A stretch of DNA of 43,206 bases from a virus: the IMG/VR virus record IMGVR_UViG_3300025000_000194, positions 1 through 43,206 of that record; one strand, given 5' to 3'. How positions within the stretch are numbered: the stretch's first letter is position 1; each line of letters opens with the position of its first letter. Shown one piece after another: positions 2,835-27,198 of the stretch. Both the position numbers and the translations under genes were made by a program. The notes beneath the pieces are model-generated. The model saw nothing but the letters and a program-made list of their open reading frames with translations. It was not told the origin of the DNA and searched no databases.

Positions 2835-3020
2835 CTAATTTCTGTTTTTGTAGATTTTCATGGCTTCTGCGAATCCATCTCTATTAGCCTTCATTAAAGC
2901 AAGTTCAAGTAGTGCAATAATCACTTTGACTTGGTGTTTTGGTATAATATTTTCAATTTCCAAGGAATCGAAGAGCTCCTGAGTAGCATCGATAGCGGCT
3001 TGCTGTGAAGATTGATTCAT
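2835..3020 (-). CDS. Hypothetical small protein (61 aa)
   Basis: The product is mostly helical and acidic in the first half, with a conserved-looking ELALMKANRDGFAEAMKIY helix. Its N-terminus MNQSSQQAA resembles the MEHPSQQ start of the upstream WG-repeat protein. The start has the TTAAAATCTTCTA leader box shared by early genes. No family is recognised. Confidence 0.55.
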   Translation of the reverse strand: MNQSSQQAAIDATQELFDSLEIENIIPKHQVKVIIALLELALMKANRDGFAEAMKIYKNRN

Positions 3021-3038
3021 GTTAGAAGATTTTAAGAA

Positions 3039-3488
3039 TTAATTAAAAAATATTTCAATCATTTCTACACCTTTTCTGCCCCAAACTTTGTCATCATGGG
3101 AGTAACCAAGAAAATCATACTTAAAAGGAACCAGCACATCTCCATTTGAGTCCAACATTCCCCAATATCCACATTTTTTAGCTCTAATTGTGTCATTATA
3201 GGAGTAACCAAGCCAATCGTATTGAAAAGGTACTAATATCTCCCCACTTGAGGAATCCAACATCCCCCAATATTCCCCTTTCTTAGCTTTAACCTTGCCC
3301 TTATAGGAATAATCAATATTATCATACTCAGTGGGTACTAATACATTCCCATTTGAGTGGTTGACCATTCCGTACTTTCCCATTTTTTTTACTCTAACCT
3401 TGCCATCGTAGGGGTTTTCAAACCAATCATATTGATTACGCCAATCCTGGTCGGCCTTAGTAGTGATTTGTTGTGAAGGGTGTTCCAT
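3039..3488 (-). CDS. WG-repeat protein (149 aa)
   Basis: Three copies of a unit of about 35 residues contain the WG/YG repeat signature: W/Y-G-M-V/L, then NG, VLVP and YD. This repeat family forms beta-rich domains of unclear function in many bacteria and phages. It opens with a WRNQYDW segment, like the two paralogues at 37085 and 38217. It is the first gene of the operon expressed from the promoter at 3581-3609 and has a leader of about 85 nt related to that of another operon. A role in binding host proteins is possible but not shown. Confidence 0.75.
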   Translation of the reverse strand: MEHPSQQITTKADQDWRNQYDWFENPYDGKVRVKKMGKYGMVNHSNGNVLVPTEYDNIDYSYKGKVKAKKGEYWGMLDSSSGEILVPFQYDWLGYSYNDTIRAKKCGYWGMLDSNGDVLVPFKYDFLGYSHDDKVWGRKGVEMIEIFFN

Positions 3489-3574
3489 ATTAGAAGGTTT
3501 TAGACCGAGTGAATAGAGTTTGTTATCCTAGCGATAAATCCGTTTTGCCTATTGGCTGGATTTGCTATGAAGAC
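3489..3574 (-). promoter_or_regulatory. Structured 5' leader, copy A
   Basis: In transcript sense the leader forms AAATCC (complement of 3558-3563), one unpaired base, the hairpin GCC-AATA-GGC, five unpaired bases, then GGATTT (3536-3541). The boxes TATCGCTA and ACTCGGT follow, then a CTTCTA box beside the ATG. Copy B at 36958-37042 has the same boxes, the same 1x5 internal loop and the same length. Its outer stem is AAGCT/AGCTT instead, so pairing is kept while the sequence changes. This suggests a conserved RNA structure. Confidence 0.5.
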
Positions 3575-3580
3575 ATACCC

Positions 3581-3609
3581 ATTATGTCAAATTGTATATA
3601 CAAAGTCAA
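3581..3609 (-). promoter_or_regulatory. Sigma-70-like promoter of the WG/RHH operon
   Basis: On the minus strand TTGACT (complement of 3604-3609) and CATAAT (complement of 3581-3586) are 17 bp apart. Transcription would start near 3574, giving an 86-nt leader before the ATG at 3488. Confidence 0.7.
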
Positions 3610-3611
3610 TA

Positions 3612-3642
3612 AGAAATGTGTGTACAAATAGGAGAAATGTGT
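3612..3642. promoter_or_regulatory. Direct repeats between divergent promoters (operator candidate)
   Basis: AGAAATGTGT occurs at 3612-3621 and again at 3633-3642. The 21-bp spacing puts both copies on the same face of the helix. They lie between the -35 boxes of the two divergent promoters, the expected place for an operator controlling both. Confidence 0.5.
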
Positions 3643-4160: not shown

Positions 4161-4471
4161 ATGTTGATAACCAAATCAATGACTAAAGGATACGGTAAAA
4201 AATTCTGAATGTCAAGTGGTTAGCCTAATTAAATAGGCTTCGTGGGACACATGAGATTAAACTCTTGATCCCAGACATCAATTCCAAGATGATCCCAGAG
4301 GCGATAATTTATAAATCGTTTCTTTTTTTTTGGGGGGGGGATTTTTTCTTTTTCTTCTTCTTTTACCCTTTTCTTCTTCTTTTTCTTTTAAACAAGTTCT
4401 TCCATTTCTTCTTGCTTTCTATTTCAATCATGGTATAAGAGAAATAACAGATCACTAGTCAATGTTATAAC
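4161..4471. other. Noncoding region before the terminase genes
   Basis: No open frame of note. From left to right it holds a hairpin AGCCTA/TAGGCT (4222-4239); a larger stem-loop closed by TGGGA/TCCCA (4243-4273); two copies of GATCCCAGA; a CGAT/ATCG hairpin; a run of nine T then nine G (4323-4340); and about 50 bases almost purely pyrimidine (4341-4389). It lies immediately upstream of the small-terminase-like gene, where many phages keep their packaging start site. A pac or cos role is inference. Confidence 0.5.
4412..4439 (+). promoter_or_regulatory. Candidate late promoter with extended -10
   Basis: TTGCTT at 4412-4417 and TATAAG at 4434-4439 are 16 bp apart, and the -10 is preceded by TGG, an extended -10. 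Transcription would start about 26 bp before the first packaging gene at 4472. Confidence 0.4.
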
Positions 4472-4840: not shown

Positions 4841-6982
4841 TTGACAGAATCAAACACAACTCAATTAAGTATCAAACTTCACAAGTATCAGACGAGGATT
4901 TTTGAGAGTACTTCCAGATTCAAAGCATTAATAGCAGGAGTTCAGAGTGGTAAAACGGTTTGCGGGGCTTTGTGGTTGGGGGTTCGAGCTTTGAGTATGC
5001 AAAATAAGAACCATCTTATAGCTGCACCTACTTATAAAATTCTATCTCAATCAACATTGCCGAAATTCTTTGAGTTATGGCCAACCTTATTAAAATACTA
5101 CAAAAAACAGGATGGTGTTATTGATCTCCCAGGTGGTGGAAAAATATTTATCAGATCAACGGAGAACCCTGTAGGGCTTGAAGGGATGACACTGAAGTCA
5201 GCTTGGCTTGATGAGGCTGGTCAGATGAAGTCGATGGCTTGGATTGTTCTACAAGCTAGACTTGCAATCGAGATGGGCGAGGCGATGCTCACAACTACAC
5301 CTTATTCAATGAATTGGGTGAGGAATGATTTTGTTAAACAGTTTGAATCAGGTAATAAAAGTTATGATGTTATCTCGTTCTCTTCGATTGATTCTCCGTA
5401 CTTTCCAAAAGAGGAGTACGAACGCATGAAACAAACTTTAAGTGAAGAGATGTTTGACATGCGATACCGTGGAATATTTAGAAAGTTTTCAGGATTAGTT
5501 TATCGTGACTTTGATCGCAATGTGCACGTCATTGATGTTAAGCTTAAACCTGGTTGGGCACTCTATAGATCAATCGACTGGGGCTATAATGATCCGTTTT
5601 GTTGTTTGTGGATTGCTGTCGATTTCGATTCAAATGTTTATATTTATCGTGAACATTATGAGGCAGAGCAACCAACGGACTATCATGCTGAAATGATTAA
5701 GGCACTAAGCTTTGGTGAGAAATACAAATGGAGTTTAGGTGACTCAGCTAATCCCCAAATGATCAAAGACATGATGGTTAAGGGGATTGAAGTGCAGGCC
5801 TGTATCAAAGGGCCTGGTTCAATTCAAGCTGGTATTGAGCAAGTTAGAAACTTTTTGCAAGTTAGAGCGAATGGGAAACCTAGATTGTTTGTTGATAAGA
5901 ATTGTATCAACACAATCGATGAGTTTGAAAACTATCGGTATCCAGAAGACAGTAGAGATGATAAGAATAAAAGTGATCTCCCAGAGGATTATTTCAACCA
6001 CGCATGTTTTACAAAAGATGTAAAGGTTTTAACAGATAATGGGGAAGTACCTATATATAAGATAAAAAAGGGGGATAGAGTTAGAACTCCATTTGGAGTT
6101 TCTAAAGTATTAGAATGTGGAAAAACTGGGCATTCAAAAGTTTTTAGATTTGGTAATGGGGGGATTACAGGTAGTCATAAGATTTTTACACAAAGAGGGC
6201 TTGTTAGGTTTGATGCTTTGCGATATAATGATTATGTATGCAAATTAAATCAGAGAAAATCATTATTGATGGGATCAGTTTCAGAAGGTATCCACAATCG
6301 AAGAAGATGGAGCTTAGAAAGTATTTTATGTGTTCTCAGACGGCTAAGACAGGCTATAGAACAGAACGACTACATCGATATATTTGGGGGAAATATAATG
6401 GTGAAATTCCTAAGGGTTATCATATTCATCATAAAGATAATAATTTTCTTAATAATGAATTGGATAATTTGGAATTGGTATCAACTAAAGAACATGCTCA
6501 AAGACACTACGAGGAGATGCTTCCGATTGCTAAGAAAAACATTGAATATGCTAGAAAATTTGCAAGCATCTGGCATGGTACCGAAGAAGGTATTAAATTC
6601 CATAAAAGGATTGGCAAAATGGCTTGGGAAAATAAAAAATATTACTCAAAAATTTGTGAGATCTGTGGAGAAGAATTTAAAACACCATTTCCAGAAAGAA
6701 CAAAGTATTGTCATCGAGGAAAGAGTCGGAATAATTGCAGACAGGCAGCACTTAGGAGAAGAAGAAGATGTTTACAATCTTAAAACTGAGTATGGAATGT
6801 ATTTTGCAAATGGTATATTAGTTTCAAATTGTGACTGCACAAGGTACTTTATCCATAAGTTTGCAACACCGAGAAAAGACAGCATAAAAAAACAAATCAG
6901 TGAGCCTTTATCTCCACGTGAGATTAGAATTAAGAACAGTAAAAAGGGTACGAATAGATTTTCTGATATGTATAAGATGTAA
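4841..6982 (+). CDS. terL: Large terminase subunit interrupted by an intein
   Basis: DNA-packaging ATPase-nuclease. The 713-codon frame gives 388 residues of N-extein, a 275-residue intein and 50 residues of C-extein; spliced length is 438, normal for TerL. Walker A is AGVQSGKT (residues 32-39) and Walker B is AWLDEAG with D124-E125. The RNase-H-like nuclease domain starts at SIDWGYNDP (D246) and continues with LGDSANP. The intein splits NHA from CDCTRY, the last acidic motif of the nuclease. The start is a TTG at 4841, chosen because no ATG precedes the Walker A; it has no Shine-Dalgarno sequence. Packaging should need protein splicing. Confidence 0.93.
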   Translation: MTESNTTQLSIKLHKYQTRIFESTSRFKALIAGVQSGKTVCGALWLGVRALSMQNKNHLIAAPTYKILSQSTLPKFFELWPTLLKYYKKQDGVIDLPGGGKIFIRSTENPVGLEGMTLKSAWLDEAGQMKSMAWIVLQARLAIEMGEAMLTTTPYSMNWVRNDFVKQFESGNKSYDVISFSSIDSPYFPKEEYERMKQTLSEEMFDMRYRGIFRKFSGLVYRDFDRNVHVIDVKLKPGWALYRSIDWGYNDPFCCLWIAVDFDSNVYIYREHYEAEQPTDYHAEMIKALSFGEKYKWSLGDSANPQMIKDMMVKGIEVQACIKGPGSIQAGIEQVRNFLQVRANGKPRLFVDKNCINTIDEFENYRYPEDSRDDKNKSDLPEDYFNHACFTKDVKVLTDNGEVPIYKIKKGDRVRTPFGVSKVLECGKTGHSKVFRFGNGGITGSHKIFTQRGLVRFDALRYNDYVCKLNQRKSLLMGSVSEGIHNRRRWSLESILCVLRRLRQAIEQNDYIDIFGGNIMVKFLRVIIFIIKIIIFLIMNWIIWNWYQLKNMLKDTTRRCFRLLRKTLNMLENLQASGMVPKKVLNSIKGLAKWLGKIKNITQKFVRSVEKNLKHHFQKEQSIVIEERVGIIADRQHLGEEEDVYNLKTEYGMYFANGILVSNCDCTRYFIHKFATPRKDSIKKQISEPLSPREIRIKNSKKGTNRFSDMYKM
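6005..6829 (+). other. Intein in TerL
   Basis: The intein begins with Cys (TGT 6005) and ends with VSN before a +1 Cys (TGT 6830). Block A is CFTKDVKVLTDNGEV with KKGDRV; block B is TGSHKIFTQRG, with the expected T-x-x-H. Blocks F and G are EEDVYNLKTEYGMYF and ANGILVSN. The penultimate His is Ser, which active inteins tolerate. The middle (about 6240-6755) is open in this frame, but its translation is an odd basic and very hydrophobic sequence unlike any endonuclease. The recognisable endonuclease is encoded there in another frame. Confidence 0.88.
6238..6783 (+). CDS. HNH homing endonuclease nested out of frame in the intein
   Basis: A 181-residue frame, shifted by one base from TerL, lies wholly inside the intein coding region. 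Residues about 45-90 carry a full HNH_3-type motif: HRYIWGKYNGEIPKGYHIHH, then KDNNFLNNELDNLELVST and EHAQRH. A C-terminal zinc site follows (CEICGEEF, then C, C and a basic tail). Free-standing phage and group I intron endonucleases look like this. The ATG at 6238 is internal to the intein gene. Translation would need internal initiation or a frameshift. The enzyme probably cuts intein-free terL alleles and so spreads the element; that function is inferred from the family. Confidence 0.85.
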   Translation: MQIKSEKIIIDGISFRRYPQSKKMELRKYFMCSQTAKTGYRTERLHRYIWGKYNGEIPKGYHIHHKDNNFLNNELDNLELVSTKEHAQRHYEEMLPIAKKNIEYARKFASIWHGTEEGIKFHKRIGKMAWENKKYYSKICEICGEEFKTPFPERTKYCHRGKSRNNCRQAALRRRRRCLQS

Positions 6983-24430: not shown

Positions 24431-26014
24431 ATGTCAACAAATTACCAACAATCAGCTTCTCAGTACCTAAAAAGTAAAGGTATAACTATGGATGTTAGAC
24501 AAGTTGTTGACCGAGAACTTTTAGACAATATTAGTGATATTGTGGGTGCTCTCTCAAGAGGAGATAAAACAAAACTAAATGAAGAAGAATTAAATAAATC
24601 ATTTTTAAAAGCTAGAACGGCACTTGCTAATTTTGGTAGTATTGTTAGTAGTGATCGGGTTAAAACTTATAATGAACTTAGAAATCGTCTAATAAATGAG
24701 TTCGGTTTAAATATAGAAGTACCTGAACTTTCAGCAGATGAAATAAAAACGGAACAAGAACTTTTCCCATCAATGACAAGTAATGGAACAGGACAGCCTA
24801 AAATTTCAAGTGAAGATTTGAATACTTTTAAAAATATTGATTCAGCTTATCAATCTTGGAAATCAACACAAAATGAACAAGATAGATTAAAAAGTTTAGA
24901 TACCATATCCACAGAGCCAATGGCTAAGGTAAAAACATCAAGTGAAGCAATTAAAACTAAATTAAAATTTACTGCAAGTGATTCAACAAAAGTTTTAGTT
25001 AAAAATAAGCAAACTGGTGAGCAACGAATGGTTTCTAAAGGTAGCCCATTAATAGGAAGTGTTTATGAGATAGTCCCTATTCAAGAAGGAGGGACAGGAG
25101 ATGGGATTAAACAAACAAATAATGTTAGCGAAAATGGAACAGGTAATGGGATTAAACAACTTATTACAGAAAATAATTCATCAAATACTACAAATGAAAC
25201 ACCATCAGGATATACACCAACTGGTGATCCGGTTTTTGATGCAATGATGGAGATAGTTATCCCATTAATTGAGCAAGAATATGGAGTAGATCAGCCACCT
25301 AGTGAGCTTACAGATGAACAATTAGCTAATATTGCAACCAAAGCGGAAGAACGATTCGGTCCTTATTATAAAGAACTCGAACGGCAAGCTTTAGAAGATT
25401 TTAATTATGAAAAAGCTGGGCTTGAAACTTCTTCAACAAGACAAAAAGAGGATTTTGTTAATCAATTAAAGGTTGGACAACAAGGTATTGAAGATCAAAT
25501 TTTGCAATTACAAACTGAAAAAACACGAGTTGAAGAAAATAAAACAAAAGCAGCGACACTTGAAGCCCGTAATTATGAACAAGCAGTTACAGATTCTCAA
25601 AATTATCTTGCTAATGTCGGACTCAGTCGTGGCGGGACTCGTGGTAAGACTGAATCAAAACTTGCAACACAAACATCAGAAAATCAAGCTAATATTGAAC
25701 AATCAGCCAAACGTAGCCAAGAAGAAATTGAAAGAGCTAGACAACAATCACTTCAAGGATTTGAACAACAATATGGATTATCCAACCTACCTACGGGAAT
25801 ATCTTATACAAGCCCTTATGATAATTTACAGGGATATTTACCAACAACTTATACAAGGGGGCAACAAGATATTTCAACAACTCAAGATCGGTTATCTAGT
25901 CTTTATGGTAGGGGGCAAACAGCGCTTGAAAATCAAAAATATGCTGACATTTTATCTCAAAAGGAATCAGAAAGAGCAAAAATGCTTGATTATTATTCTC
26001 AATTATATTCTTAA
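24431..26014 (+). CDS. Helical internal virion protein (527 aa)
   Basis: The protein is rich in Gln, Glu, Lys and Ser. The N-terminal domain is helical (VVDRELLDNISDIVGALSRG). A Thr/Asn-rich linker with two GDGIKQTNN-like copies follows (about 217-250), then PVFDAMMEIVIPLIEQEYG. The last 200 residues form long coiled coils (KVGQQGIEDQILQLQTEKTR) ending in a disordered tail. Its place between fibre genes and the giant 27198 gene suggests an ejection or internal virion protein. Confidence 0.55.
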   Translation: MSTNYQQSASQYLKSKGITMDVRQVVDRELLDNISDIVGALSRGDKTKLNEEELNKSFLKARTALANFGSIVSSDRVKTYNELRNRLINEFGLNIEVPELSADEIKTEQELFPSMTSNGTGQPKISSEDLNTFKNIDSAYQSWKSTQNEQDRLKSLDTISTEPMAKVKTSSEAIKTKLKFTASDSTKVLVKNKQTGEQRMVSKGSPLIGSVYEIVPIQEGGTGDGIKQTNNVSENGTGNGIKQLITENNSSNTTNETPSGYTPTGDPVFDAMMEIVIPLIEQEYGVDQPPSELTDEQLANIATKAEERFGPYYKELERQALEDFNYEKAGLETSSTRQKEDFVNQLKVGQQGIEDQILQLQTEKTRVEENKTKAATLEARNYEQAVTDSQNYLANVGLSRGGTRGKTESKLATQTSENQANIEQSAKRSQEEIERARQQSLQGFEQQYGLSNLPTGISYTSPYDNLQGYLPTTYTRGQQDISTTQDRLSSLYGRGQTALENQKYADILSQKESERAKMLDYYSQLYS

Positions 26015-26025
26015 AAAAACAATTA

Positions 26026-27198
26026 ATGGCTACAAATACACGTGAATTATCATTATATCAACAATATAAACAGGGATTGCTTACTCAAGATGAATATGCT
26101 AGACAACTACAATTAAGAAATTTAGGGAATATCTCAGAAACTAAACGAACATTACCACAAGAGACGCAATATCAGACTGCGGTTTATAATCAAGCTAGTA
26201 GTGATGTAGGTAAATATTCTAGCCCAACGACATTTGGGCAGAAATTAAAAGAAGCGATTCAAACAGCGATGGGGCAGGCTGGTGGGACTAAACTTATGGA
26301 AGAACGTAAAAACTTACGTGCTCAATTATTTGCAGCTCCTGATACGATGTATGCTCAAGAATCAGGGTTAACTAATTTATCTCCTGCTGAACAAAACCGT
26401 ATTATTGCACTCCGTGAGGGAGGATTGATGGGGCAGCTAGAAAATCTTGATTATGCCATTAACCAACGAGGACAGACTGCTAATGATCTTCTAGGTACTG
26501 GATTGGGGATTTACGATGAACAAAGGACTGAAGCGCAAAGGCAGGCTGACATGGCTGCACAACGTTTAGCATCAATTCAGCAATCTCAATCTGCACAGCA
26601 ACAAGCCTTACAAGATTATTATTCTTCACTTGGATATTCAATAAATCCTCAAACGGGAGATTTATCTCGTAATCTTGAAGGGTTAGGATTTGATTTAAAG
26701 AGTGGAGGAGGCGCAGTAAGTGCAAATGTTACACAAGATGATGTTACACAAGATGATGCTGGCTTTTTAAAGTTATTAGCTGAACAAGCTTCTTCTGGTA
26801 AAATAACAGATATGCAAGCATTCCAACAAATTGAGGACTCTTATAAAAATTCAGCTACACGTAATCCTAACTTGATTAGCCAATTAAAATATTTATATCA
26901 GCAGGCTAGACAAGAATTAGCACCTAAAATACCAGAATATACAGGGCAAGGATTGGATTATTTAGGTGAATTATTGAATGTAGGTGAATCTAGTAAAAAT
27001 TATAATGCTTTTAATCTTAATATCCCTACAGAACAAAATATTTCTAGTTTATCTAAAGACGAGATTCTAGCAGGAGTAATTGGTTCAGATACTACAGATG
27101 TACGTAATCAAAAAATGAATGATTATTATGGTGGGCAAAGGGGAATTCAACTATTGCCCACTTTAGACTCTGTTTATAATTATATATTTGGAAATTAA
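26026..27198 (+). CDS. Gln-rich virion protein (390 aa)
   Basis: It opens with a helical repeat region (ELSLYQQYKQGLLTQDEYAR, ending LQLRNLG), then coiled coils with many Gln (QRQADMAAQRLASIQQSQSA). A helical C-terminus contains SKDEILAGVIGSDTTDVRNQ. It resembles the preceding protein in composition and is probably another ejection or internal virion protein. It ends one base into the start codon of the next gene. Confidence 0.55.
   Translation: MATNTRELSLYQQYKQGLLTQDEYARQLQLRNLGNISETKRTLPQETQYQTAVYNQASSDVGKYSSPTTFGQKLKEAIQTAMGQAGGTKLMEERKNLRAQLFAAPDTMYAQESGLTNLSPAEQNRIIALREGGLMGQLENLDYAINQRGQTANDLLGTGLGIYDEQRTEAQRQADMAAQRLASIQQSQSAQQQALQDYYSSLGYSINPQTGDLSRNLEGLGFDLKSGGGAVSANVTQDDVTQDDAGFLKLLAEQASSGKITDMQAFQQIEDSYKNSATRNPNLISQLKYLYQQARQELAPKIPEYTGQGLDYLGELLNVGESSKNYNAFNLNIPTEQNISSLSKDEILAGVIGSDTTDVRNQKMNDYYGGQRGIQLLPTLDSVYNYIFGN

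Follow-up and report, generated by a model that had tools for sequence, protein, structure and literature searches.

The TerL gene of a virus in IMG/VR (record IMGVR_UViG_3300025000_000194, positions 1 to 43,206; this whole stretch of 43,206 nucleotides is referred to as the window) very probably carries a mobile intein at its nuclease active-site motif, with the homing HNH endonuclease encoded as a complete gene overprinted in another frame of the intein linker. More than 200 related phage sequences share this layout, in which an out-of-frame HNH gene is nested in the intein; as a way of building mobile protein-splicing elements it has been overlooked.

The terL open reading frame (4841 to 6982, plus strand) encodes 713 amino acids with Terminase_6N and Terminase_3C domains, and it runs across the intein without an internal stop, as a sequence-only reading of this DNA had noted. 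The intein itself (6005 to 6829, plus strand; 275 amino acids) corresponds to residues 389 to 663 of the TerL product and is inserted in the nuclease motif between NHA and C..RY; the spliced TerL is predicted to have about 438 amino acids. Its sequence has the position-1 nucleophile (Cys1), T-x-x-H motif, terminal Asn (Asn275) and +1 Cys (codon at 6830) of an intein, and Cys1, the final Asn and the T-x-x-H of block B do not vary among aligned relatives. Block B reads T-G-S-H (6167 to 6178, plus strand), with T55 and H58 invariant in 27 to 30 inteins. The C-terminal splicing block, EDVYNLKTEYGMYFANGILVSN (6767 to 6829, plus strand), scores above the cut-off of NCBIfam intein_Cterm (17.6 versus 15.6). 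The penultimate intein residue is Ser in the window and His, the usual residue, in many relatives.

The nested HNH gene (6238 to 6783, plus strand; 181 amino acids) lies in the -1 frame relative to TerL and matches HNH_3 (PF13392; E = 1.6e-15, 56.9 bits versus a curated cut-off of 24.8). In its own frame a TGA precedes the ATG by two codons, and the stop codon of the gene falls inside the C-terminal splicing block; the third reading frame over the same DNA has 26 stops. Pfam matches divide by frame: one gives the terminase domains plus a Hint match below the cut-off, the other HNH_3. The product has the complete HNH motif and zinc site attributed to it earlier from the sequence: H62, H64, H65, N72, N73, N77 and H86 in the motif region (6367 to 6498, plus strand) are invariant, as are zinc-ligand cysteines C140 and C143, while C158 and C167 are nearly so (6655 to 6738, plus strand, for all four). 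Elsewhere in the window, a 190-amino-acid open reading frame (25473 to 26045, plus strand) overlaps one of 527 amino acids (24431 to 26014) in another frame, and neither has a Pfam match.

Structure prediction with AlphaFold gave pLDDT values of 84 to 96 for intein residues 1 to 80 and 93 to 95 for residues 251 to 275, with the linker mostly at 41 to 83, whereas the HNH product of the same DNA was modeled confidently throughout (mean pLDDT, 92.7). In these models the ends of the window intein form a Hint fold; the top Foldseek matches were the gp41-1 and DnaB inteins, and gp41-1 was also the nearest solved intein (E = 1.5e-20). The solved structure nearest to the HNH product is I-HmuI, which belongs, like other phage HNH_3 homing endonucleases, to the same Pfam family but is encoded in a group I intron, whereas the window HNH is nested in an intein and has a C-terminal zinc site.

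Canonical large inteins contain an in-frame endonuclease, either LAGLIDADG or, as in the Synechocystis GyrB intein, HNH. The window intein resembles them in that its Hint domain is interrupted at the usual endonuclease position, but its HNH is in the -1 frame rather than with the splicing domain, which places the endonuclease outside the spliced protein. Fractured genes with split inteins (gp41-1, NrdJ-1) were reportedly described by Dassa et al. in 2009, and gp41-1 is known to be of that kind. The same HNH family occurs in fractured TerL genes at 26 related loci; in the window and in 223 loci, however, the intein is a single chain in one open frame, and the endonuclease is overprinted on it instead of standing between two open reading frames.

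An arrangement of this kind could be produced by a sequencing or assembly indel that masks an ordinary in-frame endonuclease. A second IMG/VR contig (L001, IMGVR_UViG_3300009285_000830) is identical to the window over 8.2 kb except for one 21-bp indel near 4323, about 1.7 kb upstream of the intein-HNH region and upstream of a small-terminase-like open reading frame. The 21 bp missing from L001 (a T run followed by about nine G, at 4319 to 4345 of the window) may be a sequencing or assembly artifact, and this suspicious homopolymer stretch is what speaks for error. Because the second contig is identical at the nested locus, a base error there is unlikely; two compensating errors would be required, and the arrangement recurs in 223 relatives, which come from many samples and include isolate genomes. 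There is no stop in the TerL frame, which the sequence-only reading had named as one outcome that would undo its proposal, and the relatives already refute assembly error, to which we assign a vanishingly small probability.

The linker frame might also be open by chance, with HNH a fossil or an unrelated gene. This frame reads HNH codon positions 2 and 3 and then the next position 1; it contains a stop only where an HNH codon NTA precedes an A or a G, or NTG precedes an A. For a hydrophilic protein such a frame is naturally stop-poor. When the synonymous codons of the window HNH were permuted, a null that is conservative because codon usage itself may be adapted, the TerL frame stayed open in 1.8% of draws; when codons were drawn from the third-base composition, it did so in 0.035%. 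The earlier estimate of below one in a thousand therefore holds under the second null and fails under the first, and openness at the window locus, judged by its sequence alone, is suggestive rather than decisive. The 1.8% is the point in favor of chance. Against it, the linker is open in 223 of the 241 loci that have both splicing blocks in one frame, none of these loci has just one stop, and HNH codon third positions are the most variable. Chance is excluded once the relatives are pooled, and we consider this explanation extremely improbable.

Substitutions among relatives support an overprinted gene under selection. Across some 70 pairs of nested loci that are related to each other, 47 to 58% of changes before and after HNH were at intein codon position 3, while inside HNH 50 to 53% were at HNH codon position 3, which corresponds to intein position 2 or 1; this comparison is descriptive rather than a formal dN/dS, and some pairs are near-duplicates. 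Within the overlap the pattern thus follows the HNH frame, and on either side of it that of the intein. The concentration of changes at HNH position 3 within the overlap indicates that the HNH protein is under purifying selection. For the linker peptide, these sequences apparently carry no sign of purifying selection beyond the absence of stops. Together with the lack of stops in 223 loci, the substitutions across the family indicate that stops are selected against, in agreement with the suggestion that the linker frame is kept open.

Relatives came from scanning IMG/VR and GTDB genomes with profiles and from a search of phage genomes, which together yielded 274 loci with a related HNH. Splicing-block profiles were run in every frame, with no requirement for openness, and both blocks were found around HNH in 249 loci. 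In 223 of these a single frame holds both blocks and stays open across HNH, with HNH out of frame; the intein frame is +1 of HNH in 174 and +2 in 49. The other 26 are fractured, with the intein in two open reading frames and a separate HNH: 18 have a shared block frame with at least two stops, and 8 have blocks in differing frames. Not one of the 249 flanked loci has HNH in the intein frame, a result that concerns this HNH family rather than all TerL inteins, as the scans were selected on the HNH motif, and none with a shared frame has exactly one stop. Locus counts include near-copies; clustering at 70% left 148 representatives, 123 of them nested. The 25 split or free representatives have a mean of 5.7 stops versus 5.4 to 5.6 expected, which indicates that the null is calibrated, and the nested ones have none. 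The same nesting, for which the sequence-only reading had recommended testing homologous TerL inteins, was found at 223 loci in two phases, supporting its idea of a separately encoded homing gene inside an intein frame that is kept open.

Among 53 diverse nested open reading frames, 50 match PF14890 (Intein_splicing), and all 53 inteins have Cys1 and the terminal Asn. Their remaining domains belong to terminase families, with Terminase_6N found in 36 and Terminase_3 in 31 (overlapping sets). One of the 53 (L074, 2156 to 4261) is a DegT/DnrJ/EryC1 aminotransferase gene rather than a terminase, with the same nested intein-HNH design. The TerL open reading frames of L070 (443 to 3769) and L068 (491 to 3817) are 1,109 amino acids long, which leaves room for a second intein, and in L070 a weak match to LAGLIDADG lies near residue 263, in addition to the nested HNH intein. 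The GenBank annotations of Highwayman, TJE1 and LS06-2018-MD07 lack the nested HNH gene.

In the 26 fractured loci, IntN stops just past the HNH start, HNH follows, and IntC lies in another open reading frame that overlaps the HNH end. Nested and fractured forms are intermixed on a tree built from 139 HNH rows; at least nine changes are required for the split label, of which well-supported branches force three, and three changes for phase 2, of which one is forced. By this phylogeny, the two forms interconvert, and the tree, which is unrooted and weakly resolved, gives no direction. No in-frame ancestor of the HNH family was seen among the 249 flanked loci. The proposal that the window intein is an intermediate survives in its link to fractured genes, as the same HNH family occurs, interleaved, in 26 split TerL inteins; its implication of rarity does not, as nesting is the prevailing state in this family.

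The nested gene has candidate start signals of its own. In fractured HNH genes the Shine-Dalgarno sites are strong (mean, -8.3 kcal/mol versus -2.5 at control ATGs), and about a third of nested HNH genes have such a site, the phase-2 class being without. An extended -10 element (TGnTAnnnT) 6 to 9 nt before the ATG was found in 31 of 119 nested representatives, versus 4.6 expected from synonymous recoding of the intein, and in 7 of 32 versus 1.3 expected after clustering at 45%; the enrichment also stands if the start is taken to be the first ATG that follows the upstream stop. Where the chosen start of a nested gene has a Shine-Dalgarno site, no extended -10 lies at a gap of 6 to 9 nt; with all candidate starts considered, the two signals co-occur at one locus only. 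In several loci (L036, L045, L245 and L055) TTGACA lies 16 to 18 nt upstream of the extended -10, and a gap of 6 would place the predicted transcript start at the HNH ATG. These patterns suggest that a promoter inside the intein yields a leaderless or near-leaderless HNH message in part of the family. In L074 the extended -10 of the nested HNH is perfect, at a gap of exactly 6 nt from the ATG.

In the window, a sigma70-type promoter-like element (TTGTTA-17-TATAAT; 6201 to 6229, plus strand) lies 8 nt before the HNH ATG and is without the TG. It outscores most synonymous recodings (p about 0.05) and is not above chance density in this AT-rich stretch; its candidacy as a promoter is weak in the window and draws mainly on the family-wide enrichment. 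Neither a Shine-Dalgarno site nor an extended -10 was found in 49 nested representatives, a class that is A-rich before the ATG (0.45 versus 0.40 under the null). Examples with an A-rich stretch upstream of the HNH start are L067, L072, L063, L007 and L054, and some relatives come from Bacteroides genomes or a human fecal sample. Hosts that do not rely on Shine-Dalgarno initiation are possible.

Programmed ribosomal frameshifting would place the endonuclease within the reading of TerL as an intein-HNH fusion, and the commoner phase does have HNH in the -1 frame, the usual bacterial direction. Yet slippery heptamers are unenriched where a shift could occur (9 of 103 loci versus 7.7 expected), the two phases would need opposite shifts, and most nested genes have an ATG at a homologous place a few codons past a stop in their own frame; we regard frameshifting as very unlikely. 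Removal of the insert as a group I intron, with the open frame incidental, has in its favor that phage group I introns commonly hold HNH genes. The Hint fold is intact, though, and the splicing residues are invariant; moreover, Rfam at gathering thresholds has no match in the window, and this route seems to us exceedingly improbable.

We return to an intein with an overprinted homing gene. A ribosome on terL would read through to give TerL together with the Hint splicing domain and a linker of roughly 180 residues, and the intein, to judge from its motifs and fold, would splice out of this precursor. The HNH protein would be translated from its own start codon, probably by means of a Shine-Dalgarno site in some relatives and, in others, from a leaderless or near-leaderless mRNA with the start 6 to 9 nt past the extended -10. 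Sequence comparison points to selection that holds the HNH protein sequence and bars stops in the linker frame, and a broken linker frame could give a fractured gene, in which a free-standing HNH separates the two halves of a split intein. Whether all of this amounts to a widespread phage intein lineage whose overprinted homing gene has its own expression signals (in part a sigma70-type promoter, with mRNA from at or next to the HNH ATG), and whose members pass repeatedly between nested and fractured forms, with breakage of the linker frame as a route to split inteins, we judge to be evenly balanced.

A close published case dates from 2025, when an out-of-frame HNH was described in a non-intein insertion of phage DNA methylases (ShiLan domain, Pacc40 gp60) (PMC11855218). 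There, too, HNH lies in another frame of an insertion that is open in the host frame, and homing was proposed; the authors, who detected neither a splicing domain nor a ribosome-binding site, suggested leaderless initiation (PMC11855218). They take the ShiLan insert to be retained in the protein, whereas the window insert has splicing blocks, catalytic residues and a Hint fold, which sets it apart from that type; and translation of the hidden gene was left unexplained there, whereas start signals were found here for many members. For overlapping frames as frequent in actinobacteriophages, PMC11855218 cites a preprint by Gosselin, Arsenault and Gogarten (bioRxiv 10.1101/2025.01.02.630785) and Gorbalenya 1998; both concern non-canonical inteins and, going by how they are cited, may describe the arrangement. 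Outside these two works, our literature search returned no account of an out-of-frame HNH inside true inteins, and priority is uncertain.

A search for endonucleases in the intein's own frame only would score nested inteins as endonuclease-free. The family parts splicing from homing within one stretch of DNA, and its naturally overprinted gene pairs, in two phases, are material for studies of overlapping-gene evolution. How hidden HNH genes get translated, a question raised in print, receives a testable answer from the family, and through its mixture of nested with fractured forms the origin of split inteins, which are widely used tools, can be tested directly.

Mobility was traced in a relative rather than in the window intein. 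In Acinetobacter phage Highwayman, the nested intein is an exact 981-bp insertion, and at least 12 relatives have intein-free TerL genes 93 to 99.5% identical to Highwayman's. Compared with Acba_21, all 15 mismatches, which include the +1 Leu to Cys change, lie at -163 to +12 of the insertion, and the remainder of the 1,311-bp stretch is identical; compared with WCHABP12, all 33 mismatches lie at -310 to +29. This pattern in the flanks looks like the co-conversion expected of double-strand-break repair, and it is consistent with an HNH that would cut intein-free terL, after which repair would copy in the intein together with its nested gene; this one insertion with its conversion tract is the case we infer it from. 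Acba_21 and WCHABP12 were used as empty-site partners in place of Acinetobacter phage BP10 (L093), whose TerL is too diverged (27% over 201 amino acids). BP10 TerL is without an intein, and a free-standing HNH gene (2998 to 3639), 51% identical to Highwayman's nested HNH, adjoins the terminase small-subunit gene of that phage.
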